Made by a program: the position numbers and the translations under genes | Notes under the pieces: model-generated | What the model was told of the DNA's origin: nothing | Database searches by the model: none | Seen by the model: only the letters and a program-made list of their open reading frames with translations | Part shown: piece by piece, positions 4,609 to 22,190 of the stretch | Layout of the letters: every line of letters begins with the position of its first letter | Numbering within the stretch: position 1 is the first letter of the stretch | NCBI GenBank assembly: GCA_003478935.1 | Contig: QUFP01000009.1 | Span: forward strand, 1 to 64,000 | DNA from: Firmicutes bacterium AF25-13AC | GTDB lineage: Bacteria > Bacillota > Clostridia > Lachnospirales > Lachnospiraceae | Reading direction: 5' to 3' | Length of the DNA stretch: 64,000 nt

Positions 4609-4814
4609 ATGATACTAGGGTCAAAAGCTCCAAAAGCCGTTCGTGCTTGCACGATAAAGCTTTTGAGCTTGGGACCCGCAAAAACATGAGGATGCAGCGA
4701 TTTTCAAAGAAAATCAGCGAATCCGAATGTTTTTAGAATTGCGAAAGTTGCATAGCAACGGAGCAATTCGTGGGTATCGGTTGGGGGCAAAATACCTTTT
4801 GACCCCAACATCAT
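4609..4814. repeat. MITE-like palindromic repeat, longest copy (family A)
   Basis: A 206-bp element fills most of the gap between the TetR gene and the lipid operon. Its ends are imperfect inverted repeats: ATGAT-ACTA-GGGTCAAAAG on the left and, on the opposite strand, ATGAT-GTTG-GGGTCAAAAG on the right. Inside are hairpins at about 4625-4670 (AAAAGC/GCTTTT around TCGTGC/GCACGA), 4696-4718 and 4736-4769 (GAATTGC/GCAATTC around GTTGC/GCAAC). The terminal palindrome 4781-4808 followed by TTTTTT could also act as a terminator. Partial and deletion copies occur at 13864-13910, 51111-51162 and 53637-53683. Confidence 0.75.
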
Positions 4815-4841: not shown

Positions 4842-5915
4842 TCATGAAAGTAAAGATTCTATTACATCTTCTGCATATTCAAGATGATCACATCTCCACG
4901 CATCTGCTCCGCAGAAAACAAGACCATTTTTTGCATCGCCCGTGACTGAGGTAATCAGCGCATCTGTAATACAATATGGAATCTTATCTGGACGGCAATT
5001 TTTCAGACAGCCTCTGCAGCGCACTGGCGCTATGCGTCCTCCAGACATAATTGTATCACTAAATTTATTTCTGACAGCTCGTCCCGGAAGACCAACAGGA
5101 CTATCAATCAAAATAATATCTTCCTTTGATGCATCAAGATAAGCCTTCTTAAAAGCATCTGATGCATCACATTCATATGTTGTAACGAAACGAGTAGCTG
5201 CCTGAATAGCGTCCACGCCTAACGAAAAAGCATGATCTGCTGCTTCCTTTGTGCTTATTCCTCCTGCCAAAACGACTGGAATTTCTTTGTTAAAACGCGC
5301 CGCATACTCACGGCAGACTTCAATAATATTACGCACCTCTTTTTCATAGACATCAAAGGTATAATAGGAGAGCTGATCTTTTGCAAAGCCAAGATGACCA
5401 CCAGCAAGCGGTCCTTCAATAATCACAAAATCTGGTGCACAGTGATGCTTTTTCTCCCAATAGCGAAAGATTACACGCGCCGATTTTTCAGTTGAAACGA
5501 CTGGTGCAAGTGCTGGTGCCTCCACAGATTGATCCATCTCTTCCATGGCATTTGCAACAATTTTAGGAAGATCAACTGGAAGACCTGCTCCGCATACAAG
5601 AAAATCTGTTCCTGCCTTAACAGCAGCCCTAACATACTCTTCGTAATGCTGCATGGCAACCATAATATTAAAACCGATTATGCCATCTGGGCTGATTTTT
5701 CTTGCTTTATCAAATTCACTTTTGATTGCGCGAAGATTTGCCTCAAACGGATCTTTGTCAAATTCAGGATCTGAAAATCCAATCTGTGCTGCTGATATCG
5801 TGCCGGCTCCTCCTGCCTTTGCGACTGCACCAGCCAGTCCAGAAAGACTTACGCCGACACCCATACCGCCTTGAAAGATCGGCTTTTTCAGCTCTTTATT
5901 TTTTATTTTTATCAT
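4842..5915 (-). CDS. NPD/FabK-family FMN oxidoreductase (nitronate monooxygenase-like)
   Basis: A 357-residue TIM-barrel flavoprotein of the nitronate monooxygenase/FabK family. Visible motifs are PIFQGGMGVGVS at the N terminus, GFNIM, GPLAGGHLG around the expected catalytic His and FMN-binding site, and VVLAGGISTKEA. A cysteine-rich tail (CRGCLKNC and two later Cys) is unlike FabK. It is the last gene of the fab/acc operon, 19 bases after accDA, with RBS AGGGA. Being in the operon beside a true FabK, it could be an accessory enoyl-ACP reductase, a nitronate detoxifier or another FMN reductase; sequence alone does not decide. Confidence 0.85.
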   Translation of the reverse strand: MIKIKNKELKKPIFQGGMGVGVSLSGLAGAVAKAGGAGTISAAQIGFSDPEFDKDPFEANLRAIKSEFDKARKISPDGIIGFNIMVAMQHYEEYVRAAVKAGTDFLVCGAGLPVDLPKIVANAMEEMDQSVEAPALAPVVSTEKSARVIFRYWEKKHHCAPDFVIIEGPLAGGHLGFAKDQLSYYTFDVYEKEVRNIIEVCREYAARFNKEIPVVLAGGISTKEAADHAFSLGVDAIQAATRFVTTYECDASDAFKKAYLDASKEDIILIDSPVGLPGRAVRNKFSDTIMSGGRIAPVRCRGCLKNCRPDKIPYCITDALITSVTGDAKNGLVFCGADAWRCDHLEYAEDVIESLLS

Positions 5916-5934
5916 ATTTTATTCCCTGCCATAA

Positions 5935-7617
5935 TCAATATTTACGAAATCTCTGATAGCGGTGTTCGCACAGCTCTATGCTGTCCATACTGCCATATTT
6001 TAATAAAAACTGATCAATCTGGCTGCGAAGTGCCTCTGCTACATCTTCCATCTGATCCTTTGAAAAATGTTCCGGCTCCTCAAATACACGCTCGACAATT
6101 CCTGCCTTTTTCAAGTCGGCAGCTGTAAGCTTCATGCTGTCAGCAGCCTCCTTTGCACGCTTGCTGTCTTTCCAAAGAATACTTGAAAATCCTTCAGGAG
6201 AAAGGATGGAATATACTGCATTTTCCATCATCCATACCTCATCTGCTACTGCAAGCGCGAGCGCACCGCCGCTTCCGCCCTCTCCAATCAAAATAGAAAG
6301 AATTGGTGTCTTTAAAGATGACATTTCAAAAAGATTTCTTGCGATTGCCTCTCCCTGGCCATGCTCCTCTGCTTCAATTCCACAGGCAGCGCCTGGTGTA
6401 TCGACAAAGCAAAGAATTGGACGATGAAACTTTTCAGCCTGCCTCATCAAACGAAGTGCCTTTCTATAACCTTGCGGGGAACACATGCCAAAATTTTCAT
6501 TTTTCTCCTGTGCAATCACCGTGACAGGCTGACCATTAAAAAAGCCAATTCCCGCCGTAACAGCTTTATCATCTGTCATTATTCGATCACCATGAAATTC
6601 ATAAAAATGATCAATTAGTGCATTAATATAATCATAACCTATAGGACGTTTTTTATCGCGTGAAAAGCAAACGCGGTCCCATGCCGAATATTTTTTCTGA
6701 ATATTTTCTTCTGCTGCTTTGACATTTTCAATTTCAGTTTTTTCTGCGAAAGAACTTATCTTCAATTCAGCCGATACACTATGAAGATGTAAAAGGTCTG
6801 TCAGCACTTTCTTTTGCTCATGACGCTCAACAATGCGATCCACAAAGCCATGCTCAAGCAAAAATTCTGCTCGCTGAAAGCCTGCCGGAAGGCGCTGTCC
6901 TGTCGTCTGCTCTATCACACGAGGTCCCGCAAAACCAATAAGTGCCTTTGGCTCTGCCAAAATAATATCAGCCTCCATAGCAAAACTTGCCGTCACACCG
7001 CCTGTTGTTGGATCGGTAAGCACACTTATGTATAAAAGTCCTTCATCACTGTGACGCTTAAGCGCAGCTGATGTCTTTGCCATCTGCATAAGAGATATAA
7101 TTCCCTCCTGCATTCTTGCACCGCCAGAGCATGTAAAAATGATAATAGGCAGCTTCTTTTTTGTTGCCTCTTCTGCTGCACGCGTAATTTTTTCTCCTAC
7201 TGCCTCTCCCATGCTTGCCATCATAAAGCGGCCATCCATCACGCAAAGCACACACGGCTCGCCGCCTATTGTACATTGTCCTGTTACAACAGCTTCTTTT
7301 AATCGTGTCTTTAACCTCGCAGCAGCAATTTTTTCCTCGTACCCTTCAAACTCCATGGGATTTTTGCCCACAAGATCATGATCCCATTCAAGAAAGCTTC
7401 CCTCATCTGCAATTCGCGCAATACGCTCCTGTGCACGGACACGAAAATAGCCATTGCAGCTTGGGCAGACATAGAAATTTTTTCTGACATCCTCTGCTAC
7501 TATCGCCTTTTTGCACATGCTGCATTTGCAAAGAAGACCTTCTGGCACCTCTGGTTTCTTGCGGATTCCGGCAAATGGCCGCACCAACGTCTTTTTAAAT
7601 ACATGATCGAGATTCAT
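5935..7617 (-). CDS. accDA: Acetyl-CoA carboxylase carboxyltransferase, fused beta-alpha subunits
   Basis: This 560-residue protein joins AccD and AccA in one chain. The N-terminal half carries the AccD zinc ribbon (CSMC...CPSC at about 32-54) and a carboxyltransferase domain with TCSGGARMQEG and DPTTGGVTASFAM. The C-terminal half has AccA motifs (GYDYINALIDHFYEFHGDR, DTPGAACGIEAEEHGQGEAIA, GEGGSGGALALAVADEVWM). It transfers the carboxyl group from biotin to acetyl-CoA, making malonyl-CoA in the cytoplasm. The subunits are separate in most bacteria, and fused forms occur in some Clostridia. AGGAGG lies 10 bases before the ATG, and accC ends six bases earlier. Confidence 0.96.
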   Translation of the reverse strand: MNLDHVFKKTLVRPFAGIRKKPEVPEGLLCKCSMCKKAIVAEDVRKNFYVCPSCNGYFRVRAQERIARIADEGSFLEWDHDLVGKNPMEFEGYEEKIAAARLKTRLKEAVVTGQCTIGGEPCVLCVMDGRFMMASMGEAVGEKITRAAEEATKKKLPIIIFTCSGGARMQEGIISLMQMAKTSAALKRHSDEGLLYISVLTDPTTGGVTASFAMEADIILAEPKALIGFAGPRVIEQTTGQRLPAGFQRAEFLLEHGFVDRIVERHEQKKVLTDLLHLHSVSAELKISSFAEKTEIENVKAAEENIQKKYSAWDRVCFSRDKKRPIGYDYINALIDHFYEFHGDRIMTDDKAVTAGIGFFNGQPVTVIAQEKNENFGMCSPQGYRKALRLMRQAEKFHRPILCFVDTPGAACGIEAEEHGQGEAIARNLFEMSSLKTPILSILIGEGGSGGALALAVADEVWMMENAVYSILSPEGFSSILWKDSKRAKEAADSMKLTAADLKKAGIVERVFEEPEHFSKDQMEDVAEALRSQIDQFLLKYGSMDSIELCEHRYQRFRKY

Positions 7618-7622
7618 AATCT

Positions 7623-8969
7623 TTATGCCTCCTGCTGAATACGGTCAATAAATTCAATGTCAATATTTCCTGTCAGAAAATCCGGATGATTAAGCAGCGC
7701 ATACTGATAATTGACATTGGTATCAACGCCCTCTATGATTACCTCACCGAGCGCACTTTGCATTTTTTGAATTGCCTCACGTCTGTTTTTTGCCCACACA
7801 CTTATCTTTGCTATCATTGAGTCATAATATGGCGGAATCGTATAGCCACTATAAATTGCAGAGTCAATGCGCACTCCCTTGCCTCCTGGCAGATGAAGTC
7901 CTGTAATAGTTCCTGGACATGGCAAAAAATTCTCCTCTGGACGCTCTGCATTTATTCGTACCTCAATTGCATGGCCACTAATCTTTACCTGATCCTGTGT
8001 ATAAGAAAGCCTCTTTCCATCAGCGATTCGAATCTGCTCTTTAATCAGATCTATTCCTGTGATCCACTCTGTAATTGGATGCTCTACCTGGATTCTTGTA
8101 TTCATCTCCATAAAATAGAAGCTGCCATCTTGCTCAAGCAAAAATTCAATTGTGCCAGCATTAACATAACCTGCTGCCTTGGCTGCACGCACTGCTGTCT
8201 CTCCCATTCTTTGACGAAGTTCTGGCGATAACGCTGCACTTGGCGCCTCCTCGATCATCTTCTGATGATTTCTTTGAATAGAACAGTCACGCTCACCGAG
8301 GTGAATTACATTCCCATAAGAATCTGCAAGAATTTGAAATTCAATATGACGCGGTCTTGTAATAAAATGCTCAATATACATAGCATCATCGCCAAATGAC
8401 TGCTTTGCTTCTGCTTGTGCTATTGCAAAATTTTTTACAAACTCTTCTTCATCCTTTGCCGTGCGCATTCCCTTGCCGCCTCCGCCAAGGACTGCCTTAA
8501 TCATAACTGGATAACCAACCTTTTTTGCAGTCTCTTTCGCATCCTTTTCATCATACACTGCATGATCACCGCCAGGTATAACCGGAACACCGGCACTAAT
8601 CATAGTCTCTCTGGCCGCCTGTTTGTCACCAAGTTTAGCAATCACATTAGAATCTGGCCCGATAAAAATAATGTTGCATTCTTCACACAGTTTTGCAAAG
8701 CGGCTGTTTTCCGACAATAATCCAAAGCCTGGATGAATGGCCTCTGCACCTGACACAATTGTTGCACTTATGATACGCTCCATTGACAGGTAGCTCTCGC
8801 TAAGCTTTGCCGGTCCGATACAAATTGCCTCATCTGCGAGCTTCGCATGAAGCGCATCCTTATCGGCCTCTGAATAGACTGCTACCGTTTCAATCCCCAT
8901 CTCTCGGCAGGCACGAATAATGCGCACTGCAATCTCTCCCCGGTTTGCTACAAGAACTTTCCTGATCAT
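7623..8969 (-). CDS. accC: Acetyl-CoA carboxylase, biotin carboxylase subunit
   Basis: A 448-residue enzyme that carboxylates biotin on AccB with ATP and bicarbonate. It shows the N-terminal domain MIRKVLVANRGEIAVRIIRA, an ATP-grasp glycine loop GGGGKGMR (about 163-170), the catalytic segment MEMNTRIQVEHPITE, and the C-terminal domain from about residue 335. Its length is standard. The start is preceded by AGGAG. It sits between fabZ and accDA in a tightly packed operon. Confidence 0.97.
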   Translation of the reverse strand: MIRKVLVANRGEIAVRIIRACREMGIETVAVYSEADKDALHAKLADEAICIGPAKLSESYLSMERIISATIVSGAEAIHPGFGLLSENSRFAKLCEECNIIFIGPDSNVIAKLGDKQAARETMISAGVPVIPGGDHAVYDEKDAKETAKKVGYPVMIKAVLGGGGKGMRTAKDEEEFVKNFAIAQAEAKQSFGDDAMYIEHFITRPRHIEFQILADSYGNVIHLGERDCSIQRNHQKMIEEAPSAALSPELRQRMGETAVRAAKAAGYVNAGTIEFLLEQDGSFYFMEMNTRIQVEHPITEWITGIDLIKEQIRIADGKRLSYTQDQVKISGHAIEVRINAERPEENFLPCPGTITGLHLPGGKGVRIDSAIYSGYTIPPYYDSMIAKISVWAKNRREAIQKMQSALGEVIIEGVDTNVNYQYALLNHPDFLTGNIDIEFIDRIQQEA

Positions 8970-8977
8970 GTTATCTC

Positions 8978-9406
8978 CTATCCTATCATAAATGTTAACT
9001 CAGCTCGGACAACTACCTTGCCATCCACGCTTGCAACTGCCTCTCCAATACCGACAGGTCCTTTTGTCTTGATGATCTTTGTCTCAAGACGTACCTTATC
9101 ACCAGGCACTATTTTTCCTCGAAAACGGCACTTGTCAATTCCGCCAAAGTAAGCTGTTTTTCCCTTATTTTCTGGAAGTGAAAGAATTGCAACTGCACCC
9201 GTCTGCGCCAGTGCCTCGATTGTCAAAACACCTGGCATAACTGGTTCCTGCGGAAAATGACCGGCAAAAAACTCCTCACGGTATGATACACATTTATATC
9301 CAACAGCATACTCACCCGGTACATAATCTTCTATGTAATCAATTAATAAGAACGGATGGCGATGCGGAATAATATCTTTAATCTGGTTAATATCTAAATG
9401 ATTCAT
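8978..9406 (-). CDS. fabZ: 3-hydroxyacyl-ACP dehydratase FabZ
   Basis: A hot-dog-fold dehydratase of about 142 residues that removes water from 3-hydroxyacyl-ACP in the elongation cycle. It has the active-site segment IPHRHPFLLID and GHFPQEPVMPGVLTIEALAQ with the catalytic Glu. The frame could begin at a TTG five codons earlier, but the ATG at 9406 has GGAG nine bases upstream and is preferred. No FabA or FabM-like isomerase is seen nearby, so the route to unsaturated fatty acids is not explained by this operon. Confidence 0.95.
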   Translation of the reverse strand: MNHLDINQIKDIIPHRHPFLLIDYIEDYVPGEYAVGYKCVSYREEFFAGHFPQEPVMPGVLTIEALAQTGAVAILSLPENKGKTAYFGGIDKCRFRGKIVPGDKVRLETKIIKTKGPVGIGEAVASVDGKVVVRAELTFMIG

Positions 9407-9429
9407 ATTCTGATTCTCCAATTTTTGGC

Positions 9430-9900
9430 TTAAGCTTCTTCTATAATAAACAGCTTCTGACCGTACTCGACAGCATCACCGTTTTGTGCACAGATTTCTT
9501 TTACAATGCCATTTTGTTCGCAGGTAATCTCATGCATCAGCTTCATTGCCTCTACAATGCCAAGCGTCTGACCCTTCTTTACGCGATCACCTACTGATAC
9601 AAACGGTGCTTCTCCTTCTCCCGGTGCCGTATAAAAGATACCAACAAGAGGAGAATCAATATATTTGTCAGATGATGCTTCATCTGATTTTTTTGATGTA
9701 TCTGCACCCACAGCATCCTCACAATTTTGAACAATGGCAAATTCTGACGCTGCGTTTTTTACTTCTTTCTGCTGCACAACGATTTCCTTTGCTGCATTTT
9801 TCTTTAGGCGAAGCTTTATCTCTCCTGTCTCGTAGCAAAAATCATCCAGCTTTGACTTTGATACGTGATCGATCAGCTCTAAAAGATCGTCCAATTCCAT
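9430..9900 (-). CDS. accB: Biotin carboxyl carrier protein of acetyl-CoA carboxylase
   Basis: A protein of about 156 residues with an N-terminal helical part, a low-complexity linker rich in Ala, Lys, Asp and Ser, and a C-terminal biotinyl domain containing EAMKLMHEI, whose Lys carries biotin. The start chosen is the ATG at 9900, which has AAAGGTGG at a normal distance; the longer frame from 9924 would overlap fabF and lacks a good RBS. It carries the carboxyl group between AccC and AccDA. Confidence 0.94.
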   Translation of the reverse strand: MELDDLLELIDHVSKSKLDDFCYETGEIKLRLKKNAAKEIVVQQKEVKNAASEFAIVQNCEDAVGADTSKKSDEASSDKYIDSPLVGIFYTAPGEGEAPFVSVGDRVKKGQTLGIVEAMKLMHEITCEQNGIVKEICAQNGDAVEYGQKLFIIEEA

Positions 9901-9916
9901 ATGACTTTTACCACCT

Positions 9917-11158
9917 TTACGCATTTTCGTATTTCTTTATTAAAATTGAAGCATTATGGCCGCCAAATCCAAGTGAATTGCTCATCGCATAGACAACATC
10001 TTTTTCCTTAGGCGCCCCAATTGTGTAGTCAAGATCACATTCCTCGTCAGTCTCTTTTGTGCCCATCGTCTGATGAATGTAGCCTTCCTCAACAGACTTT
10101 GCACATACAACAAACTCAACGCCTCCTGCTGCTCCAAGCAAATGACCTGTCATGGATTTTGTTGAATTGATGCAGACATTTTTTGCTGCCTCTCCAAATG
10201 CCAACTTAATTGCACGCGTCTCAAAAAGATCATTATGATGCGTTCCAGTTCCATGTGCATTGATATATGTGATTTCTTCTGGAGCAGCCTTTGCCTCTGT
10301 CATGGCAAGCTCCATTGCCTTAGCTGCACCGCTTCCATCTTCGCATGGTGAAGTGATATGGAATGCGTCTGCTGTAGCTCCATAGCCTACTACCTCTGCA
10401 TAGATATGAGCACCGCGCGCTTTAGCATGTTCAAGCTCCTCAAGAACAACTACACCTGCACCCTCTCCTAAAACAAAGCCTTTTCTGTTTTTATCAAACG
10501 GAATTGATGCGTACAGCGGATCATCTGATGTTGAAAGAGCAGTCAGTGACTGAAATCCTGCAATTCCTGTCGGGCAGATACTGCTCTCTGCACCGCCTGC
10601 AAACATAATATCAGCATCATCATACTGAATTGCACGAAATGCATCTCCAATGCAGTGTGTACCAGATGCACAAGCTGTTACGACATTCGTGCACTTTCCG
10701 CGAAGTCCAAGCTGAATTGAAACATTTCCTGCTGCCATGTTTGAAATCATTCTAGGAACCATAAGCGGATTGACACGGTTCACCTGTCCCTTTAAAATCT
10801 TTTCATGCTCTGATTCCATCATCTCAAGAGAACCAATTCCTGAACCTATCACAACGCCTGCGCGAAATGCATCCTCTTTTGACAGATCAAGACCTGAATC
10901 CTCAAGTGCTTCTTTTGATGCTGCCACAGCATAGTGTGAAAAGCGATCCATTCTCTTTGCTGCCTTAAAATCCATACGATCTGCTGCCTTAAAATCCTTT
11001 ACCTCGGCAGCAAGCGTAACTTTATAACCAGTCGTGTCAAAACGAGTGATAGGTCCGATTCCTACCTTTCCATCGCGGATTCCCTTCCAGAACTCCTCTA
11101 CTGTATTTCCAATTGGAGTCACAGCGCCCAAGCCTGTCACAACTACTCTTCTTTTCAT
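9917..11158 (-). CDS. fabF: 3-oxoacyl-ACP synthase II
   Basis: A condensing enzyme of 413 residues that elongates acyl-ACP with malonyl-ACP. It has the Cys-His-His triad in VTACASGTH, HGTGTHHNDLFE and STKSMTGHLLGAAGG, and the C-terminal GFGGHNAS. ATG at 11158 follows AAGGA; a TTG one codon earlier is less likely. It lies between fabG and accB in the operon. Confidence 0.97.
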   Translation of the reverse strand: MKRRVVVTGLGAVTPIGNTVEEFWKGIRDGKVGIGPITRFDTTGYKVTLAAEVKDFKAADRMDFKAAKRMDRFSHYAVAASKEALEDSGLDLSKEDAFRAGVVIGSGIGSLEMMESEHEKILKGQVNRVNPLMVPRMISNMAAGNVSIQLGLRGKCTNVVTACASGTHCIGDAFRAIQYDDADIMFAGGAESSICPTGIAGFQSLTALSTSDDPLYASIPFDKNRKGFVLGEGAGVVVLEELEHAKARGAHIYAEVVGYGATADAFHITSPCEDGSGAAKAMELAMTEAKAAPEEITYINAHGTGTHHNDLFETRAIKLAFGEAAKNVCINSTKSMTGHLLGAAGGVEFVVCAKSVEEGYIHQTMGTKETDEECDLDYTIGAPKEKDVVYAMSNSLGFGGHNASILIKKYENA

Positions 11159-11193
11159 CAATTATCCTTGCCTTTCTGCTATGTTATTATAGA

Positions 11194-11928
11194 TTACATT
11201 CCGCCATCGACCTGAATGATCTGACCGGTAATGTATGACGCATCATCTGACGCCAGAAAGGCCACTGTTTTTGCCACATGCTCTGGCTTTCCAAATGTGC
11301 CTGCCGGAATCTGGCTAAGAATCTGATTTCTTACCTGCTCGCTTAATTTCTGCGTCATATCAGTTTCAATAAAACCTGGTGCTACAGCATTTACGGTGAT
11401 GCCGCGCGATGCAAGTTCCTTTGCTGCTGATTTCGTAAGACCTATAACACCTGCCTTTGATGCCGCATAATTTGCCTGTCCTGCATTTCCAAAAATACCA
11501 ACCACTGAAGAAATATTAATAATTCTTCCGCTTCTTTGGCGAAGCATTGGACGCGCCACGAGACGCATCGTATGAAAAGTTCCCTTTAAGTTTGTATCAA
11601 TGACTGCGTCAAAATCCTTCTCTGATATACGCATCAAAAGATTGTCACGCACGATTCCTGCATTGTTGACTAAAATATCAATTCGACCATATTCGCTAAT
11701 GATATTATTTATAAAAGCTTCGCACTCGGCTGCATCTGCCACATTGCACTGCACACCTACAGCCTTGCCGCCTGCCTGTGTAATCTCATTTACTGTCTCA
11801 TCAGCTGCCTGTTTTGAGCCATTGTAATTAACAATTACAAATGCTCCTTTAAGCGCAAGCTCCTTTGCAATGGCTCTTCCGATTCCGCGGGATGCCCCTG
11901 TTACGACTGCAATTTTTTCTTCTAACAT
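11194..11928 (-). CDS. fabG: 3-oxoacyl-ACP reductase FabG
   Basis: A 244-residue short-chain dehydrogenase that reduces 3-oxoacyl-ACP with NADPH. Visible features are the nucleotide-binding GASRGIGRA (residues about 11-19), NNAG, the catalytic Ser in ISSVVG, YAASKAG with Tyr and Lys, and the end [16 protein letters not shown] precedes the ATG. It is 8 bases downstream of fabD. Confidence 0.97.
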
Positions 11929-11936
11929 ACTTCACC

Positions 11937-12863
11937 TCACGCCTTTGACAGACATTTTTCAAGTGCTATGGCATCCTCGAAAGAGGATACGTTATATACA
12001 GTTGCCTTTGGTGCAATCTTTCTCATAAAACCTGCAAGTGTCTTTCCAGGTCCTATCTCAACAAAAGTATCCACACCGTTTTCAAGCATTGTCTCGATAC
12101 TTTGCTGCCAGCGAACAGAAGAATAAATTCCTTTTGCAAAAAATGTACTGATCTTTTTACTGTCTGTCACTATTTCGGCAGTCGCATTTGCAACATAAGG
12201 AACCTGCAGCGTTGAAAATGACATTGATTCCATCTCCTTAAGCAGCGCTTCTCCTGCTGGTTTTAAAAGCTGGGAATGAAATGGTCCACTGACTTTAAGC
12301 TCCACAACACGCTTTGCACCTGCCTCTTTTAATGCTAAAGATGCCTGCTGCACCTCATTAGTCAGACCAGTTATTACTATCTGACCAGGACAGTTATAAT
12401 TTGCGATCCATACATTTTCAAAGCTTTCAAGAATTTCTTCTATTTTTTTTGCATCTAATCCTAAAACAGCTGCCATTGCGCCTTCACCGGCCGGAACAGT
12501 GCTCTGCATCAAAATTCCTCTGCGTCGCACTAACTTTATAGCATCTAGCTCGTTCATGCCGCCTGCTGCTGCAACTGCTGCATACTCTCCAAGGCTTAAG
12601 CCTGCTGTGATGTCAGGATTAATGCCGCGTTTTTTTAGTTCCTGCACAATTGCAAGGCAAACGCTTACCATACATGGCTGTGTGTACTCTGTCAAGTTAA
12701 GTTCTTCGTGCTCACCAAAACACATTTCCTTCAAATCGAAGTCAAGAATTTTTTGTGCGTTGTCAAAAAAAGATCTTGCTGCTTCACTGTTTTCATAGAA
12801 ATCTTTTCCCATTCCAGCTTTCTGCGCACCCTGTCCAGGAAAAATAAATGCAAGCTTACTCAT
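11937..12863 (-). CDS. fabD: Malonyl-CoA:ACP transacylase FabD
   Basis: A protein of about 308 residues that loads malonyl groups onto ACP. It begins MSKLAFIFPGQGAQ, has the catalytic serine in GLSLGEYAA, an active-site His in GPFHS, and IGPGKTL near the C terminus. The ATG at 12863 was chosen because AGAAAGGGG precedes it and the family always starts just before FPGQG; the frame is open 17 codons further upstream. It overlaps the end of fabK by 8 bases, which suggests translational coupling. Confidence 0.96.
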   Translation of the reverse strand: MSKLAFIFPGQGAQKAGMGKDFYENSEAARSFFDNAQKILDFDLKEMCFGEHEELNLTEYTQPCMVSVCLAIVQELKKRGINPDITAGLSLGEYAAVAAAGGMNELDAIKLVRRRGILMQSTVPAGEGAMAAVLGLDAKKIEEILESFENVWIANYNCPGQIVITGLTNEVQQASLALKEAGAKRVVELKVSGPFHSQLLKPAGEALLKEMESMSFSTLQVPYVANATAEIVTDSKKISTFFAKGIYSSVRWQQSIETMLENGVDTFVEIGPGKTLAGFMRKIAPKATVYNVSSFEDAIALEKCLSKA

Positions 12864-13794
12864 AACATGCCCCTTTCTCAAGAAGCTTTGATGCCTCAGC
12901 CACAATGTTTTCAATGACCTCCCTGCAAGTTAACTCCTCTTTGATCATTCCTGCAATCTGACCAGACATGACACTTCCATTTTTCACATCGCCTTCTACA
13001 ACAGCCTTTCTAAGACCACCTAACGTCAGATACTCAAGTTCCTCTAATGTTGCACCTTTCTTTTCCAGATCAAGATACTGCTTTGTCATTTCATTTCTAA
13101 GTGCTCTGACTGGATGACCAGTGCTTCTGCCTGTTACTTTCGTATCAATATCCTTTGCTTTTAAAATCTTATCCTTATAATTTTGATGTGCCCAGCACTC
13201 CTTTGTCGCAACAAAACGAGTTCCCATCTGTACACCGCATGCCCCAAGCATAAAAGCTGCTGCAAGACCTCTGCCATCTGCTATTCCGCCTGCCGCAATA
13301 ACTGGGATATTCAATGCGTCAACTACCTGCGGAACAAGTGTCATTGTCGTACTCTCACCAATATGACCACCTGATTCACATCCTTCTGCAACAACAGCAT
13401 CGGCTCCTGCTCGCTCCATTCTTTTTGCTAAAGCAACGGATGCAACGACTGGAATCACCTTAATGCCCTTTGATTTCCAAAGTGCCATATAACTCTCTGG
13501 ATTTCCTGCACCTGTCGTAACAACACTTACGCCCTCCTCTGCAACTACCTGTGCAATCTCTGGCGCATAAGGACTCATCAGCATGACATTGACGCCAAAC
13601 GGCTTATCTGTCAGCTGCTTTGTCAGGCGAATCTGTTCTCTGACCCACTCAGCCGGTGCATTTGCGGCACCGATAATACCAAGTCCGCCTGCATTTGATA
13701 CTGCTGCTGCAAGCGTATGTTCCGCCACCCATGCCATTCCGCCTTGAATGATTGGTGCCTGGATTCCAAGCAATCTGGTTAATTCTGTCTGCAT
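12856..13794 (-). CDS. fabK: Enoyl-ACP reductase II FabK
   Basis: An FMN-dependent enoyl-ACP reductase of about 312 residues, the final step of each elongation round. It has IQAPIIQGGMAWVAEHTLA, KPFGVNVML, EGCESGGHIG with the conserved His, AAGGIADGRG and GTRFVATKE. ATG at 13794 follows AGGA at a good distance; the frame is open for ten more codons. No FabI, FabL or FabV is in the operon, so FabK is the likely sole enoyl reductase here unless the last-gene flavoprotein contributes. Confidence 0.95.
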   Translation of the reverse strand: MQTELTRLLGIQAPIIQGGMAWVAEHTLAAAVSNAGGLGIIGAANAPAEWVREQIRLTKQLTDKPFGVNVMLMSPYAPEIAQVVAEEGVSVVTTGAGNPESYMALWKSKGIKVIPVVASVALAKRMERAGADAVVAEGCESGGHIGESTTMTLVPQVVDALNIPVIAAGGIADGRGLAAAFMLGACGVQMGTRFVATKECWAHQNYKDKILKAKDIDTKVTGRSTGHPVRALRNEMTKQYLDLEKKGATLEELEYLTLGGLRKAVVEGDVKNGSVMSGQIAGMIKEELTCREVIENIVAEASKLLEKGACYE

Positions 13795-13863
13795 CCTTTT
13801 TTCCTGCCTTTTCTCGTTTCTCATTTATAATCATGAATATGCTCTTGTTTCATGATCGTAGTT

Positions 13864-13910
13864 ATGATACCCACGAATTGCTCCGTTGGAGCTTTTGACC
13901 CTGGTATCAT
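13864..13910. repeat. Short deletion derivative of repeat family A
   Basis: A 47-bp palindromic element between acpP and fabK, with ends ATGATACC and GGTATCAT. Read on the minus strand it joins the left end of the 4609-4814 element (GGGTCAAAAGCTCC) directly to its right-hand part (CGGAGCAATTCGTGGGTATC), so it looks like an internal deletion form. It lies inside the fab operon and would be transcribed. Confidence 0.7.
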
Positions 13911-13915
13911 ATTAT

Positions 13916-14143
13916 TTACTCTTTATGACTCTGAATATAATCGATTACATCAGCAACAGTCTCAAGCTGACCCAGATCATCAGTTGGAATTTCAATTCCA
14001 TAGTTTTCCTCAAGTGCCATTACCATCTCAAATAAATCAAGAGAATCTGCCTTTAAATCATCCTTGAAAGAGGACTCCATTGTAATGCTGTCTTCCTCTA
14101 CACCTAAGTTTTCTGCTACAATAGTCTTAATTTCTTCAAACAT
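13916..14143 (-). CDS. acpP: Acyl carrier protein
   Basis: A 75-residue acidic carrier protein that begins MFEEIKTIVAENLGVEE and contains DSLDLFEMVMALE, whose serine takes the phosphopantetheine arm. The ATG at 14143 has AAAGGAG eight bases upstream, which rules out the longer 102-codon frame starting at 14224. It follows fabH and precedes fabK in the operon. Confidence 0.97.
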   Translation of the reverse strand: MFEEIKTIVAENLGVEEDSITMESSFKDDLKADSLDLFEMVMALEENYGIEIPTDDLGQLETVADVIDYIQSHKE

Positions 14144-14208
14144 TTTCATTTCTCCTTTATAATAAATTATTGTTTTACCGTTTTTTGCGGTTTCTGCTTT
14201 GATCGTTC

Positions 14209-15195
14209 TTACTTCTTTCTCCAAGTAATCACATCTGCTCCCCAGGTTAAGCCTCCGCCAAAGCCTGCAATGATAATTTTATCACCGTCATGAAGCAGCT
14301 TTTTTTGATTCATTTCATCAAGAAGAATCGGGATTGATGCTGATGAGGTATTTCCATATTCATCCAAATTCATTGGAAATTTTTCAATTGGCTGATCCAT
14401 ACGCTTTGCCGCCGCCTCTACAATGCGGCGATTTGCCTGATGAAGAAGATAATATGCAATCTCTTCTTTTTTCAGATTGTTCTTCTCTAGAAGTTCGTCA
14501 ATTACTTCTGGCACCTTGCGCACGGCAAACTGAAAAATAGCTCTGCCATCCATGCTTATAAAATAGTCGCGCTTAAACAAGTCTGGATGCTCCTTTTCAA
14601 ACAGCCAATTTGCATCATGACGGCTCTTTAAGGTAAGTGCCTGTGACTGTCTTCCATCAGCATGAAGAACAGGAACCCATGAATCATTTTTTGATGCTTC
14701 TAATATAACTGCCCCGGCGCCATCGCCGAACAATATACAGCTTCCCCTGTCTTGCCAATCCACTACATTGGAAAGCACCTCGCTTCCGATGACAAGTGCA
14801 TAGCGTACAATTTTGCTTTCAAGATATGTACGCGCCGTGACAAATGCACTCACAAAACCGCTGCATGCTGCGTTCAGATCAAAACATAATGCATTAGAAG
14901 CACCTATTGCTGCCTGCACAAGACATGCTGTGCTTGGCATGATGCTCTCTGGCGTCATAGTGGACACAATAATCAAACCAATCTCATCCGCTAAAATTTT
15001 TGCATCCAAAAGTGCTTTTTTTGCTGCACAAACTGCTAAAGAGGAAACCGTCTCATTTTCTGCAATATGACGTCTCTTTATTCCGGTGCGCTCTGTGATC
15101 CATGCATCGCTTGTATCCACAAACTGCGCCAGCTCATCATTTTCCATTACATGTGATGCAGCGCATGCACCTGTTCCTATGATTGTTCCTGTCAT
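14209..15195 (-). CDS. fabH: 3-oxoacyl-ACP synthase III FabH
   Basis: A 328-residue initiating condensing enzyme that joins an acyl-CoA primer to malonyl-ACP. It shows the catalytic Cys in DLNAACSGF, the His in LLHQANRRI and the Asn in YGNTSSAS, and ends with GFGGGLTWGA. The ATG at 15195 was chosen from CAGAGGA upstream; the frame is open 12 codons further. It is the first gene of the fab/acc operon and faces the divergent glycosyltransferase-MarR gene. Confidence 0.96.
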   Translation of the reverse strand: MTGTIIGTGACAASHVMENDELAQFVDTSDAWITERTGIKRRHIAENETVSSLAVCAAKKALLDAKILADEIGLIIVSTMTPESIMPSTACLVQAAIGASNALCFDLNAACSGFVSAFVTARTYLESKIVRYALVIGSEVLSNVVDWQDRGSCILFGDGAGAVILEASKNDSWVPVLHADGRQSQALTLKSRHDANWLFEKEHPDLFKRDYFISMDGRAIFQFAVRKVPEVIDELLEKNNLKKEEIAYYLLHQANRRIVEAAAKRMDQPIEKFPMNLDEYGNTSSASIPILLDEMNQKKLLHDGDKIIIAGFGGGLTWGADVITWRKK

Positions 15196-15468
15196 ATCCA
15201 TCCTCTGCTCTTTCTTTCCATTGCAGTTCACAAGTTAAGCTTTCTGCAAGAATATCTCAAAGCAGATGCTTTTTACTCATGAGCTGTTACCAGTTTACCA
15301 AATTGCCAGTTAATTACAATTTACAAAAAAGCGTAAAATGTAAGAAATTTAATAAAATCATCATAGCATTTCAAAAACAGTTCTGGTAAAATGAGAATAT
15401 AAAAAGTTGATTTGTACACGCAAACCAAATACTTATTTTTCAGGAAATAGAAAGGATGGATAGGCTTT
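15196..15468. promoter_or_regulatory. Divergent control region between fabH and the GT2-MarR gene
   Basis: This 273-bp gap must hold both promoters. On the plus strand TGGTAAAAT (15384-15392) is an extended -10. On the minus strand TGCTATGAT (about 15361-15369) looks like an extended -10 for fabH. Direct repeats of CCAGTT at 15290 and 15306 (16 bases apart), with TTACCAG near 15288 and its complement CTGGTAA at 15383, could be operator half-sites. TTTG-6-CAAA at about 15412-15425 is another weak dyad. None is an unmistakable FabT or FapR box. Confidence 0.4.
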
Positions 15469-16767
15469 ATGTCTGTTAAAGTTAGTATTATCGTGCCTGT
15501 ATACAACTCTGCAAAGACACTTCGACGCTGCGCAGACAGCATTTTAAATCAAGATTTTACTGATTATGAACTTTTTCTTGTTGACGACGGAAGCACCGAT
15601 GATTCTGGTGCGATCTGCGATGAATATGCCGCCCTTGATAACCGCGTCCATGTCATTCACAAAAATAACAGCGGTGTATCTGATACAAGAAATACAGCTC
15701 TTGATCTGGCTCACGGAAAATACATACAATTTTTAGATAGTGATGATTGGATTACACCAGATGCTACAAAGCTTCTTGTGCGCACTGCTGAGAAAAACAA
15801 CTGCGATCTTGTAATAGCAGATTTTTATCGTGTCAATGGGGAGCGTGTTTCTCAAAAAGGAGATATTGATGAGGATGCCGTACTTTCAAAGGAAGAATTT
15901 TCCCACCATATGATGGAAAATCCGGCAGACTTTTATTATGGTGTTATTTGGAATAAGCTATATCGCCGTGAAATTATTGAAAAGTATGATCTTCGCATGA
16001 ACGTACAGATTAACTGGTGTGAAGATTTTATGTTTAATCTGGAGTATATAAGATATGCTGAGCGTTTTATTGCATTGAAGGTTCCGATCTATTACTATGT
16101 CAAAACAAAAGGTTCTCTTGTGAGTCAAAGTGCAACGATCTCCAATACTGTCAAGATGAAGCTTGAAATTTTTGAGTATTATAACAATTTTTATAAACAC
16201 ACATTTGATGAAGCATATTATGAGAAAAACCGACTGAGAATCTACCATTTTTTGATCGACTCAGCAAAGGATGGATTTGTAATGCCTTCAATTCTTCCTG
16301 GATCGAAAAAATTAGGCAGTGAACGAACAAGTGTATCTCCACAGGCATTAAACGGACATGGCATTATTATTGATGCCTACCGCAGCAAAATGCTTTTGCA
16401 TCGTTACCTCGAATCTGCTGCTATTAAGCATGATTTGACACTAAATGATGCCTGCCTTTTACTTGCTTTGGAAAATCCAATTCCGTTTACAACAAAAAAA
16501 GAGCTCGCCAATTATGCACAGCTCCCACTCCATATTCTTTCTTTGTCGCTCTCTCATCTTTCGATGCGTGGTTTTATTCAGCCTCTTCCGATACAACATT
16601 TTTCAGTTTGCTTGCTTGAGACAGCAACGCCAGTGCTTGACGATCTGAAAGCTGCAATTAATGATTTTAAATGCACCTGCATGCGCGACTTTACAAAAGA
16701 AGAGAGCTGCCTTTATAGACAGCTCTCAGAACGGATTCACGAAAATGTATTAGAAAGTCTTCGCTGA
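15469..16767 (+). CDS. Glycosyltransferase family 2 fused to a MarR-like winged-helix domain
   Basis: A continuous 432-residue frame. Residues 4-230 form a GT-A glycosyltransferase of family 2: VSIIVPVYNS, DDGSTDDS (39-46), the metal-binding DSDDW (90-94) and WCED (183-186). After a linker at about 270-297, residues 298-432 look like a MarR regulator: LTLNDACLLLALE, TTKKELANYAQ, LSLSLSHLSMRGFI (recognition helix region), a short wing with VCLLE, and a final helix FTKEESCLYRQLSERIHENV. RBS AGAAAGGA precedes the ATG. It is divergent from fabH, the place where a MarR-family FabT often lies in Firmicutes. It may both regulate fatty-acid synthesis and make a glycolipid or cell-surface glycan; both roles are inferred. 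The MarR half is divergent and lacks a typical wing D-R pair. Confidence 0.8.
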   Translation: MSVKVSIIVPVYNSAKTLRRCADSILNQDFTDYELFLVDDGSTDDSGAICDEYAALDNRVHVIHKNNSGVSDTRNTALDLAHGKYIQFLDSDDWITPDATKLLVRTAEKNNCDLVIADFYRVNGERVSQKGDIDEDAVLSKEEFSHHMMENPADFYYGVIWNKLYRREIIEKYDLRMNVQINWCEDFMFNLEYIRYAERFIALKVPIYYYVKTKGSLVSQSATISNTVKMKLEIFEYYNNFYKHTFDEAYYEKNRLRIYHFLIDSAKDGFVMPSILPGSKKLGSERTSVSPQALNGHGIIIDAYRSKMLLHRYLESAAIKHDLTLNDACLLLALENPIPFTTKKELANYAQLPLHILSLSLSHLSMRGFIQPLPIQHFSVCLLETATPVLDDLKAAINDFKCTCMRDFTKEESCLYRQLSERIHENVLESLR

Positions 16768-16788
16768 TCCAAATATAGTATTTTTTAG

Positions 16789-16824
16789 ACACCATGTGCT
16801 CATTGCAGTACATGGTGTTTTTTT
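16789..16824 (+). terminator. Rho-independent terminator of the GT2-MarR gene
   Basis: A perfect 9-bp stem ACACCATGT (16789-16797) / ACATGGTGT (16810-16818) is followed by a run of T residues. It ends just before the stop codon of the convergent heptad-repeat gene. Confidence 0.85.
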
Positions 16825-16826
16825 AA

Positions 16827-19800
16827 TTATTCGATCTCGTCAGTCTCAATGATGAACTTAACAGAACCATTCATGCTGTCGCTTCTGCCGCTATAGGTAT
16901 CATATGAAATCTCATCTGAGGTCAGAGCCTTTAAGCGGTCAAGAATTACTGTAAGATTCTCATCAGCCAGATCCTTGATCTTGCTGATTCCTTCATCGTA
17001 AAACTCCTGCATACCGTCCTTTAAATCCTCTGCGCCATCCTTAAGCTCGCTGATTCCATCTACTACATCATCACTTGCATCTGATAACGTATCTGCACCA
17101 TCCTTAAGATCACTAACGCCATCTGCTAACGTCTGTGCACCACTCTTTAAGTCAAGTGTTCCCTTTCTCAAATCATTAGTTCCAGACTTCAATGTATCTG
17201 CACCACTGCTAAGTGCACTTGTACCAGACTTTAATGTGTTAATTCCGCTTTGTAATGTACCTGCACCACTCTTTAAGGTATCTGCACCTGTCTTTAAAGT
17301 ATCGGTTCCGCCCTTTAAAGTGTCAGTTCCGCTCTTTAAGGTGTCAATTCCGTTCTTTGCACTGTCGATGCCGCCCTTTAAGGTTGCTGCACCATCACGA
17401 AGTGTCTGACTGTTTGCTGCAAGCTGTCCTGCTCCTGCCATCATCTGTGTGCTTAACTGATTTAATCCCTCGATCAGCTGTCCTGCTCCAGTCTGGAGTG
17501 CTGCTGCACCGCTTGTAAGAGATGCACTGTTTGCCTTTAACTGTGCTGCACCACCTGTAAGTGTATCGTTGTTTGCATCAAGCTGTGCAAAACCATCTAA
17601 CAGCTGTTTGATACCTGCCGAAGCCTGCGTGTTTAATGTAGCAACTTGTGTTGAAAGATTACCCATTTCTGCATTGAAATCTTGCATATTAGAGTCAAGT
17701 AAATCAACACCCGTGCTAAGCGCAGTGACATCTGCCGCCTGAATCTGATCTTTCATCGTGGTAATGCTATCAATCTTCTCCTTCATAGTGCCAACAGTTC
17801 CTAACAAGCCATTCGCGTTATCTACAATTGTCTGAATCTGAGTAGGAAGTGCTGCAAGTCCATTCATTAGTGCCTGCAGTGTTTCTGTATTCAAAGGTGT
17901 CACATCACCAACAGAAGCCGTTACATATGGTACACTAGCAGTAACAGATGAAACCTCTGGAATCTGATTTGCTGCTGTTTCAAGTGCTGTTGCCAGTGCT
18001 TCATCTCCATTTTGTCTTGCTGCCGCTGCCTGAGTCAAAAGAGATTGTTTTGCACTTGCAATCTGACCATTTGCTGTTGCTATTTGATCATTTGCTGTTT
18101 TGATCTGACCATTTGCCGCATCAACCTGATCATTTGCTGCTTTGACTTGGGCATTGATGTTATTTACTACACTCTGAAGACCTGCAACATATTGCTGAAT
18201 TGCACCTAACTGTGCACTTAACTGATCCTTTAAGCCAGTTGCTTGCTCCATCATAGTATTAACTGGATCTACAATCTGTGTCTGCATAGCCGCTGGCAAA
18301 TCACTTGCTTCTGTGATCAGCTCATTTCCAGTTGTCAGCATGCTGTCTAACAGAGTCATTAACTGTTTGGTCTCATCAGTTCCTAAGGAAGCCTTTAAGG
18401 ATGCTGTTCCCTGTGCCAGTGCATTTGATGCTGCGACAAGATCCTCTGTCGTCTCTCCCTCTCCATCAAGTGCTGCAGTAAGTGTGCTTAACGCACCTTG
18501 AATCTGAGTCAGTGCCTGTGCACCCTGTGAAACCTGCTGTTCACCTGCAACATATGCACTTACGCCATCTGCTAAAGAATCTGTTCCTGCTGTGTAGCTG
18601 TTAACACCAGCTGCCAATGTATTGATTCCTTGGGCAAACTGAGAAACCTTTGTGTTTAATTCACTGTCACTTGACAGATTTGCCTGAATACCTGCATTTA
18701 ACAGATCGACACCAGATGTATAATCATTGATTCCACTCTGTAATGTACCTGCACCACTCTGTAACTGTGCTGCTCCGCTTTGTAACTGTCCTGCACCGCT
18801 CTGTAACTGACCTGCTCCACTCTGAAGTGAAGTTGCACCACTTGCAAGCTGACTCACACCACTTACCAGATCCTTAGAACCACTCTGAAGCTTTCCAGCT
18901 CCATCGTCAAGCGTCTTTGCTCCGCTTGCAAGGTCACCTGCTCCGCTTTGCAACTGCTTTGCACCATCTGCAAGTTTATTTACACCATCTGTCAGATCAC
19001 CAACGCCATCTGCAAGATCATGTGTGCCATCTCTTAATTCCTTAACACCATCATCAAACTCGCCATACTTCTCGTCAAGTTCCTCCACACCATCATACAG
19101 ATCAGAGGTTCCATCAACAAGCTGTGTTGCTGCATCTGTAAGATTATCAAGTGCATCCTTGATGTCATCTAATGCACTGTCATCATCAAAATCAATATCC
19201 TTTAACAGATCAGACAATGCAACTGTAAGAGAAGAACTCATTGAAAAATCTGTTACATCAGCTTCAATCGATACGCTGTCTGGAATGTCAATATCGAGCG
19301 TTTTGTCTTCACTGTTCTTATCGTCATCATCTGCAGAAAGATCAATCGTGTCTAGTTTTAAGCTATCCTTAAGACCAGGCATTCCGACACCCACAACAAT
19401 ATTTCTGCTTCCATCGGAAATTACCTTTCCGTTGTCGATGGTGACATTAGAGAATGTATCATCTGGAAGTATCATCGCAGTCAGCATTACAAATGGACTA
19501 TAAATAGTCTCATTCTTTCCATCTACTTTTGCACTCTTCTTCTCGTTGTTAGTATACTGAATCTTGATCTGAAGATGACCACTCTTGCCGACAAGATCCT
19601 GCGGCTGCATTTCCTGTCCATCTAAGAAGTATGTAAACTTTACAGATACAGGAAGATCCTTATTGCTCTGACCCTGATAATAAATATCGCTGCCATCTGT
19701 ATTCCATGTCAGACTGTCACCATTCTCACTAAAGGTTTCATCACCTTTTACATTCTTTATATTTGTCAGATCAGATTGGTCCTCAACACTGCTTTCACTT

Positions 19801-20018
19801 CCTGCATTCTTTAACCAGTTAGATACTGTGATCTGCTGTGGATTTCCAGATGCATCTGCATTTACATAGACGGTTTCCTCTTTTGATACACTGCTTGATG
19901 AATCTGTTGTATTTGCTGTGTTCGCAGCCATTGCCATTGGAACACTTCCTACTGCTACTGCCATGCCGACTGCAAGTCCGGCTGTCATTTTTCTTTTCAG
20001 CATATGATTTCTATTCAT
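16827..20018 (-). CDS. Large secreted heptad-repeat protein (YhgE/Pip-like ectodomain)
   Basis: A 1063-residue protein with an N-terminal signal peptide (KRKMTAGLAVGMAVAVGSV, cut after AMA). An Asp/Asn-rich beta-like region follows (about 60-270). The rest is long blocks of Leu-x-x-Gly heptads such as LQSGAGQ, LADGVGD and LKSGTDT, of the kind found in YhgE/Pip proteins, split by a non-repeat helical segment at about 570-780. No C-terminal membrane helix or sortase motif is visible, unlike full YhgE proteins with their terminal membrane domain. GAGGGTG precedes the start. It is 68 bases downstream of an MMPL transporter, so the pair probably forms one surface system in which the repeats make a long coiled stalk. 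The molecular role is unknown. Confidence 0.85.
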   Translation of the reverse strand: MNRNHMLKRKMTAGLAVGMAVAVGSVPMAMAANTANTTDSSSSVSKEETVYVNADASGNPQQITVSNWLKNAGSESSVEDQSDLTNIKNVKGDETFSENGDSLTWNTDGSDIYYQGQSNKDLPVSVKFTYFLDGQEMQPQDLVGKSGHLQIKIQYTNNEKKSAKVDGKNETIYSPFVMLTAMILPDDTFSNVTIDNGKVISDGSRNIVVGVGMPGLKDSLKLDTIDLSADDDDKNSEDKTLDIDIPDSVSIEADVTDFSMSSSLTVALSDLLKDIDFDDDSALDDIKDALDNLTDAATQLVDGTSDLYDGVEELDEKYGEFDDGVKELRDGTHDLADGVGDLTDGVNKLADGAKQLQSGAGDLASGAKTLDDGAGKLQSGSKDLVSGVSQLASGATSLQSGAGQLQSGAGQLQSGAAQLQSGAGTLQSGINDYTSGVDLLNAGIQANLSSDSELNTKVSQFAQGINTLAAGVNSYTAGTDSLADGVSAYVAGEQQVSQGAQALTQIQGALSTLTAALDGEGETTEDLVAASNALAQGTASLKASLGTDETKQLMTLLDSMLTTGNELITEASDLPAAMQTQIVDPVNTMMEQATGLKDQLSAQLGAIQQYVAGLQSVVNNINAQVKAANDQVDAANGQIKTANDQIATANGQIASAKQSLLTQAAAARQNGDEALATALETAANQIPEVSSVTASVPYVTASVGDVTPLNTETLQALMNGLAALPTQIQTIVDNANGLLGTVGTMKEKIDSITTMKDQIQAADVTALSTGVDLLDSNMQDFNAEMGNLSTQVATLNTQASAGIKQLLDGFAQLDANNDTLTGGAAQLKANSASLTSGAAALQTGAGQLIEGLNQLSTQMMAGAGQLAANSQTLRDGAATLKGGIDSAKNGIDTLKSGTDTLKGGTDTLKTGADTLKSGAGTLQSGINTLKSGTSALSSGADTLKSGTNDLRKGTLDLKSGAQTLADGVSDLKDGADTLSDASDDVVDGISELKDGAEDLKDGMQEFYDEGISKIKDLADENLTVILDRLKALTSDEISYDTYSGRSDSMNGSVKFIIETDEIE

Positions 20019-20086: not shown

Positions 20087-22156
20087 TTATTTCTTTCCAA
20101 GAAAGTTAATTGATGTCTTACAAATTACTTTATCAAAAATCAGGAACATTGCCGGCAAAACAAGTGCAACAACGACAACACTAATTAATGCACCTCTTGA
20201 AAGAAGTGTACAGATGGAACCAATCATATCAACCTTTGAATAAGCTGATACACCAAATGTTGCTGCGAAGAAGCTAAGACCACTCGTTATAATGGATTCA
20301 ATGCTTGCCTTATGTGCTGCACTGACAGCTTCCTTTTTATTCTTTCCTCTGCTTCTCTCTTTCTGATAACGGCTCGTCATCAGGATTGCATAATCTACTG
20401 TCGCACCTAACTGAATAGTTCCGACAACGATAGAAGCAACAAACGGAAGACTAATGTTTTGATAGAACGGCACTGCCATATTAATTGCAATCGCAAATTC
20501 GATTACTGCTACCAGAATAATTGGCAGTGAAATCGACTTGAAAATAATCATGATAATAATGAAAATCGCTGCCATTGATACAGTGTTAACACTTTGAAGA
20601 TCGATATTTGTTACATCCTCAAGGTCCTTCATCATAGGAGCTTCACCGATTACCATTGCATTTTCATCATAACCCTTTACAATGTCATTGATCTGGGCAA
20701 TCTGACTATTAACTTCTTCTGTCGCTGACTGGTATTGTGAACATACAAATGCCAGCTCCCAGTTATCACTTTGCAACATACTCTTGATATCTTTTGGAAT
20801 CATAGAATCTGGAATAGTTGCACCAACTAAGGAATTTAAACTGATCGTCCACTTCACACCGTCCACCTCATCGATGGCATTTAACATGTCACGCTTATCC
20901 TTTGCGTCCATGTTCTTATCCATCATAACCATGTGAAGAACACTCATATCAAAGTCTTCTTCAAGCTTTTCATTTGCCACATTACTCTCAAGTGTGGATG
21001 GAAGAGATTTTGCAATGTTGTAATAAATCTTTGTATTGCTGTTTCCATAAATTGCCGGAGCTAAAAGAACAAGGAAGATAACAAGCCAAATCTTATAATG
21101 CTTTGTAATGAAGCCTGACAATCTATCCATGCTCTTAATTAGCGGCTTATGCTTTGTTTTTTCAATCGGCTTATCGAAAATAAGAATCATAGCCGGAAGA
21201 ACAGTTACACAGCAGATAACACCGATTACAACTCCTTTTGCACTGACAATACCAAGATCGCGTCCAAGTGCGAATGTCATAAAACAAAGTGCGGCAAAAC
21301 CAGCAATTGTTGTAACAGAGCTTCCCACGATAGACTTAAAGGTATTGGCGATTGCATGACCCATCGCACGCTCCCTATCATCTGGGAAACGTTCTTTATT
21401 TTCCTCATAGCTGCTAAGAAGGAAAATGGAATAATCCATTGTAACACCGAGCTGAAGAACAGCTACAAGTGCCTGTGTAATATAGGAAATCTCTCCAAGG
21501 AATACATTCGTTCCCATGTTGTAGAGAATGGATATTCCGATACTTAATAAGAAGAACAGCGGAACTAAAAATGAATCAGTAAACAGCTGCAATACAATGA
21601 AGCAAAGAATTGCGGCAATCACAACGTATGCCGGCATCTCGCTTAATGCCAGGTTCTTAATATCGGTAACAATACCAGTCATACCGCTTAAGAAGCACTG
21701 ATCATTGCTGATCTTTCTCATCTCTGTAAGGGCTTCCATAGCTTCATCAGATGATGTCGTGTTGTCAAACAGCACAAGCATCATGGTCGCATCACCTTTA
21801 AAGAACGCCTCTCGCAGATCCTTTGGAATCATCTCGACTGGAAGACTTAAATCGGCAACATCATCATACCAAAGAACATCCTTAACATGATCAATCTCAC
21901 TGTATGCATCTTCTAGCTTTTGCACATCCTTTAGTTCCATGTTTTCCACGACGACCATGGAAAACGCGCCCATTCCGTATTCATCGACCATAATATCCTG
22001 ACCCTTGATCGTCTCAAGCGTGTCTGGCAGATAACTTAAGATATCATAGTTGACTCTTGTCTTTGCCATACCGATTACGGAAGGAATCATAAGCAAAATG
22101 CTGATCAATATGATCAGATATTTATGTTTTGCAATCCATTTTCCTACTTTAACCAT
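20087..22156 (-). CDS. MMPL/RND-family transporter
   Basis: A 689-residue membrane protein with the two-fold RND plan. There is one N-terminal membrane helix, an extracytoplasmic loop (about 35-170), five helices, a second start helix near 355, another loop (375-520) and five more helices. The GATVDYAIL and GVTMDYSIFL segments match the conserved D-Y motif of MMPL proteins in both halves. Family members export lipids or drugs using the proton gradient. The ATG at 22156 is nine bases after AGGAG; an ATG three codons earlier touches the RBS and is rejected. It is the first gene of a two-gene operon with the heptad-repeat protein, controlled from an operator-bearing promoter. Confidence 0.92.
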   Translation of the reverse strand: MVKVGKWIAKHKYLIILISILLMIPSVIGMAKTRVNYDILSYLPDTLETIKGQDIMVDEYGMGAFSMVVVENMELKDVQKLEDAYSEIDHVKDVLWYDDVADLSLPVEMIPKDLREAFFKGDATMMLVLFDNTTSSDEAMEALTEMRKISNDQCFLSGMTGIVTDIKNLALSEMPAYVVIAAILCFIVLQLFTDSFLVPLFFLLSIGISILYNMGTNVFLGEISYITQALVAVLQLGVTMDYSIFLLSSYEENKERFPDDRERAMGHAIANTFKSIVGSSVTTIAGFAALCFMTFALGRDLGIVSAKGVVIGVICCVTVLPAMILIFDKPIEKTKHKPLIKSMDRLSGFITKHYKIWLVIFLVLLAPAIYGNSNTKIYYNIAKSLPSTLESNVANEKLEEDFDMSVLHMVMMDKNMDAKDKRDMLNAIDEVDGVKWTISLNSLVGATIPDSMIPKDIKSMLQSDNWELAFVCSQYQSATEEVNSQIAQINDIVKGYDENAMVIGEAPMMKDLEDVTNIDLQSVNTVSMAAIFIIIMIIFKSISLPIILVAVIEFAIAINMAVPFYQNISLPFVASIVVGTIQLGATVDYAILMTSRYQKERSRGKNKKEAVSAAHKASIESIITSGLSFFAATFGVSAYSKVDMIGSICTLLSRGALISVVVVALVLPAMFLIFDKVICKTSINFLGKK

Positions 22157-22190
22157 AGCAACCATCTCCTATCTTTTTTTCACACTACGC

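Follow-up and report, generated by a model that had tools for sequence, protein, structure and literature searches.

Does a MarR-type domain that is joined to a glycosyltransferase, and whose gene is divergent from fatty-acid synthesis genes, act on those genes as a repressor, or has it been put to some other use? This question is raised by a locus in Firmicutes bacterium AF25-13AC (contig QUFP01000009.1, positions 1 to 64,000), and we refer to this entire 64,000-nucleotide stretch as the window. A single open reading frame (ORF) at 15469-16767 on the + strand starts with ATG, specifies 432 amino acids without an internal stop, and encodes a GT2 glycosyltransferase (residues 1-267) and, C-terminal to it, a diverged MarR domain (the alignment spans residues 314-429). 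The original prediction of an uninterrupted GT2 plus MarR-fold frame was thus borne out by the open frame, by a Pfam GT2 match and by a MarR profile match, and the observation that one frame joins the two parts is confirmed. The features of the locus are as follows.

4842-15231, - strand: fatty-acid synthesis cluster, the divergent neighbour (accC, accDA and FabK-like genes among them; the other genes labelled by eye and by matches)
15232-15468, no strand: intergenic region between fabH and the ORF (examined by a dyad scan and a 13-mer scan)
15451-15461, + strand: AAAGGATGGAT, a ribosome-site-like element before the ORF start (duplex energy -7.8)
15469-16269, + strand: GT2 glycosyltransferase part, residues 1-267 (Pfam PF00535 match; 46% identity to a standalone GT2)
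16266-16284, + strand: AAAGGATGGAT again, with an in-frame ATG (16282, residue 272), the possible internal start of a 161-residue product (duplex energy -8.3)
16270-16407, + strand: residues 268-313, a linker with what is probably MarR helix 1 (from where the GT2 relative stops to where the profile begins to align; the helix was positioned from an alignment)
16408-16755, + strand: MarR-family domain, residues 314-429 (by profile comparison)
16522-16563, + strand: equivalent of the recognition helix, residues 352-365 (by alignments; mostly hydrophobic)
16564-16611, + strand: shortened wing, residues 366-381 (four-residue gap in the alignment; no lysine or arginine)
16621-16764, + strand: residues 385-432 with helices 5-6, which belong to the dimer arm (near-typical similarity to relatives)
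16787-16820, + strand: terminator-like hairpin 3' of the ORF (14 pairs, then a run of T nucleotides)

The glycosyltransferase half is readily recognized, as evident by a match to Pfam Glycos_transf_2 (PF00535) over residues 6-173 (E 5.3e-40, 137.5 bits against a cut-off of 23.3). The DDGS (residues 39-42), DSDD (90-93) and WCED (183-186) motifs that had been read as signs of an intact GT-A domain are all present, and with both the Pfam score and the aspartate motifs in place the predicted enzyme belongs to GT2 and is apparently intact. A tblastn search of plasmid records matched 1141 of them, none with 80% coverage of the query. The best match, a standalone 267-residue ORF of Subdoligranulum (L024:14986-15789), carries the same motifs and is 46% identical over residues 5-267; unlike the window protein, it stops at residue 267 and lacks a MarR part, and no fabH match occurs in the 30.8-kb stretch of this locus that was read. 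Lengths of 279-366 residues were found for ten other GT2 proteins, which come from five plasmid loci. Therefore, the addition to the window enzyme comprises at least residues 330-432, or residues 268-432 if the nearest relative is taken as the guide. Among the PDB sequence matches to the catalytic part are 6h1j and 5tz8, which we take to be TarP and TarS, respectively, and these staphylococcal proteins are likewise GT2 enzymes. TarS and TarP have C-terminal oligomerisation parts, which are not known to be MarR-like.

The origin of the C-terminal half was less evident, because neither Pfam nor NCBIfam returned any family for it at E <= 10 when it was searched alone. When residues 272-432 were searched against 295 genomes in six frames, 29 of these genomes gave a match at E <= 1, mostly over short stretches (56 and 51 residues for the two best by E-value). 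Seven of ten loci were inspected, and three of these (L067, L070 and L071) yielded a protein match, in each case to a protein of MarR size; L067 passes the Pfam MarR_2 cut-off, and L070 and L071 overlap genome places that are also matched by the FabT model. A search seeded with L067 recovered ten further MarR relatives (L076-L085), and all five that were tested pass the same cut-off.

A profile made from these ten proteins, which leaves out the three relatives found with the query itself, aligns to residues 314-429 when compared with residues 272-432 (score 55.5, probability 95.88, E 5.9e-9), and reaches a probability of 94.8 against the full protein. By comparison, the best of 300 shuffled sequences scored 24.0 and the best other piece among 122 window ORF pieces scored 27.8. 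With all 13 MarR relatives in the profile the score is 63.8. The earlier MarR call thus stands on a strong profile comparison that spans the length of the domain, with no Pfam or NCBIfam match to accompany it; a diverged MarR domain can evidently escape both collections yet be clear by profile comparison. The proteins of L067 and L076-L085, which include those of Agathobacter rectalis (L082) and Vescimonas fastidiosa (L084), are separate proteins of about 143-167 amino acids with basic wings, whereas the window copy is fused to GT2; the six of them that were tested all pass the MarR_2 cut-off, whereas the window copy matches no Pfam model.

Other approaches gave less. Among PDB sequences, MTH313, which is a MarR regulator, matches the C-terminal half best, though weakly (E 0.33), and an AlphaFold2 model of residues 268-432 from the single sequence has a mean pLDDT of 36.7. 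A genome-contig scan for the C-terminal domain found no relative, tblastn of the C-terminal part gave no match among plasmids and phages, and five of six viral-contig scans returned nothing, the remaining one giving two fabH loci of no help. A search of 295 genomes of another phylum with the full protein at E <= 1e-45 found none and is uninformative. An ordinary GT2 tail was rejected as an explanation of the C-terminal half: on a profile of FabT-type proteins, ten other GT2 enzymes score 10.3-15.1 with their C-termini, compared with 22.6 for that of the window protein.

What the domain might do depends in large part on its DNA-contact surface. In a MarR study (PMC2650471), the recognition helix contacts the major groove, and a highly conserved wing arginine lies in the minor groove, an arrangement proposed to be generic to MarR proteins. 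The wing columns of the window domain hold no lysine or arginine, whereas all 13 relatives have 2-7 such residues. A D-x-R/K sequence falls within these columns in nine of 13 relatives and in 36 of 36 FabT-set proteins (45 of 49 together). Across the whole winged-helix segment, lysine plus arginine number 3 in the window domain versus 7-14 in the relatives, and the recognition helix ranks lowest of 14 in similarity. The loss of the wing is clear as judged from these alignments, and the DNA-contacting parts of the MarR-derived domain look lost.

We quantified the divergence of each part as a similarity z-value, given here for all 13 relatives, for the same comparison with gaps ignored, and for the nine nearer relatives, samples that are small in each case: helix 1 (-1.48, -2.40 and -3.69), helices 2-3 (-1.67, -1.93 and -5.96), recognition helix (-2.73, -2.73 and -3.23), wing (-5.95, -3.17 and -5.67) and helices 5-6 (-0.70, -0.97 and -1.16). 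Only helices 5-6 are conserved to a near-typical degree, and helix 1, which also belongs to the dimer arm, has diverged. Because helix 1 and helices 2-3 are affected, the loss extends beyond the DNA surface.

Since the basic wing that would touch DNA is lost, the domain most likely serves the enzyme. Our tentative preference, which we hold slightly above its close rival, a merger of two genes, is that the glycosyltransferase has taken over the MarR fold as a module for assembly or sensing. The gene would yield a single polypeptide in which GT2 is followed by a domain of MarR-regulator descent, and this domain might pair subunits through its remaining dimer helices, or might bind a small ligand that tunes the enzyme. 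Several features are consistent with such a module besides the MarR ancestry and the gapped wing with few basic residues around it. The 165 residues past the GT2 end have stayed open, in both halves the highest codon score belongs to the ORF frame (the other five frames being negative in each half), and helices 5-6 remain near typical whereas the wing does not. In addition, a hairpin terminator lies 3' of the ORF (three terminator-like sites were found versus 1.1 expected), and therefore the GT2 and MarR pair would be one unit. However, the divergence of helix 1 and of helices 2-3, most marked against the nine nearer relatives, fits this reading less well, as do the smaller wing deviation once gaps are ignored and a net charge and pI that fall within the range of the relatives. 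The codon score also counts against it, falling from 0.344 per codon for residues 1-267 to 0.144 for residues 272-432, which is low relative to the window median of 0.427 and is undercut by only four of 52 window ORFs. If the fusion proves to be conserved, the fold of a transcription factor would have become a module of an enzyme that transfers sugar, its DNA-touching wing discarded. Narrow full-text queries for a fusion of glycosyltransferase and MarR domains returned no report from a literature collection whose coverage leaves most subscription journals outside.

The rival merger is scarcely less probable than the preferred reading. It holds that a GT2 gene of about 267 codons and a MarR-type gene were joined by loss of a stop, that translation of the MarR half begins, for the most part or additionally, at a start of its own (16282), and that the halves have no joint function or the second is decaying. 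The nearest GT2 relative found ends at residue 267. The 11-mer AAAGGATGGAT occurs only twice in the window when both strands are searched, before the ORF start and before ATG 16282, and the predicted duplex at the internal site is no weaker than that at the ORF start. Moreover, this ATG sits within TAATG, a stop/start overlap whose stop is in another frame. The internal site with its shared 11-mer and the overlap favour an origin from two genes and allow for a free 161-residue product, and the broad divergence outside helices 5-6 and the low codon score of the MarR half also speak for the merger. Against this, the MarR half remains open across 161 codons and clearly recognisable, and a product begun at 16282 would carry a longer N-terminal tail than most relatives. 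The site ranks first of nine in the ORF but only 37th among 545 internal in-frame ATGs of the window, such that 36 others are equal or better, although some of these mark the real beginning of ORFs whose listed extent is too long. If the fusion is not conserved, the locus would be a record of the merger of two genes.

The preferred module and the internal start can also be combined, such that a MarR repressor domain, no longer binding DNA, became an assembly or ligand-sensing module of GT2 while the internal start could also release it as a free partner; glycan synthesis would then be under allosteric control by a former transcription factor. We regard this fuller scheme as unlikely. More improbable still is the reading in which the locus makes two products, the fusion together with a separate MarR-like fragment as its pairing partner: the internal start is as good as that of the ORF, but the divergence of helix 1 weakens any argument for pairing.

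The remaining alternative was the one first proposed, that the domain is linked to FabT (background in PMC9083066), and that it represses the adjacent genes. The ORF is indeed divergent from fabH (14209-15231, - strand), as the ORF layout confirms. No separate FabT was found among the window ORFs, in agreement with the original prediction: an hmmsearch of 52 window ORFs of at least 110 amino acids with a FabT-type profile gave nothing significant (best E 0.058; the fusion ORF third at E 0.13). FabT itself (NF050133) shares the MarR fold and a position near fabH with the window domain, but the latter differs in its divergent gene, its GT2 fusion and its missing basic wing. It also gives no match to NF050133 at E <= 10, a model that detects FabT-like proteins of L002 (1.4e-22), L011 (8.7e-35) and L026 (2.6e-42), all short of the curated 200-bit cut-off. 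The match of the window domain to a profile built from 36 MarR proteins, FabT among them, is weak (score 22.6, probability 6.7); none of 400 shuffles reached this score, and one other of 122 window pieces exceeded it (25.2, helix-turn-helix by eye). We therefore rejected the domain as a FabT on the basis of the absent model match and the weak profile match.

The intergenic region likewise offers little to a repressor. Within 15196-15470, a scan for dyads (arms 6-11, gap 0-7, one mismatch) gave a best score that was reached by 70 of 100 shuffles, and a FabT-like 13-mer with up to two mismatches to the consensus did not occur in 15232-15468. Longer spaced repeats, which may be due to chance, are present. 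Together with the wing that lacks lysine and arginine, the failure of any short dyad to exceed shuffles runs counter to the DNA-binding role that had been suggested. A recurrent association of the fusion with fabH did not emerge either, since a GT2 match was absent from all 27 fetched loci that have a fabH-like match (these represent 25 distinct places, because L009 duplicates L002 and L045 duplicates L011), a weak test given that flanks range from none to about 10 kb, with many near 1.5 kb, and that no locus is known to come from the family of the window organism. A genome-contig scan for fabH gave eight distant loci. FabT-like genes do adjoin fabH in L011, L015, L018 and L026, and in Acetoanaerobium (L026) such a gene lies directly before it (6187-6642). 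Despite these examples, the MarR fold and the divergent placement, binding of the MarR part to the fabH promoter region so as to couple lipid status to glycan synthesis is highly improbable given the wing, the FabT comparisons, the dyad scan and the fabH-like loci. It is more likely that the domain holds or tunes the enzyme, or remains from a gene merger, than that it controls fatty-acid genes, and its position next to fabH may be a coincidence. In Streptococcus pneumoniae, FabT is reported to regulate capsule indirectly (PMC8406281).

Other features of the window are recorded here in their own right. In the fatty-acid cluster, accD and accA are fused as one 560-residue ORF (5935-7617, - strand); they also form one ORF in Collinsella (L027) and two pieces in Acetoanaerobium (L026). 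A 1063-residue protein in which the X-X-X-Leu-X-X-Gly heptad (TIGR03057) is repeated many times is encoded at 16827-20018 on the - strand, adjoining an ORF labelled by eye as MMPL-like (20087-22165). Two overlapping ORFs at 38879-40359 (- strand) resemble, by eye, one solute-binding protein in two frames. A Clostridiales-1 RNA is present at 4610-4779 on the + strand (127.5 bits versus a cut-off of 48). Finally, FtsH from the ftsH region (1651-3495 and 3626-4033, + strand) is 80% identical over 613 residues to the FtsH encoded on plasmid pMM35_01 of Vescimonas fastidiosa (L084), on which MarR and TauE/SafE genes are followed by ftsH and then by a DUF308 gene; in the window, a DUF308-like ORF also follows ftsH (53% over 83 residues).
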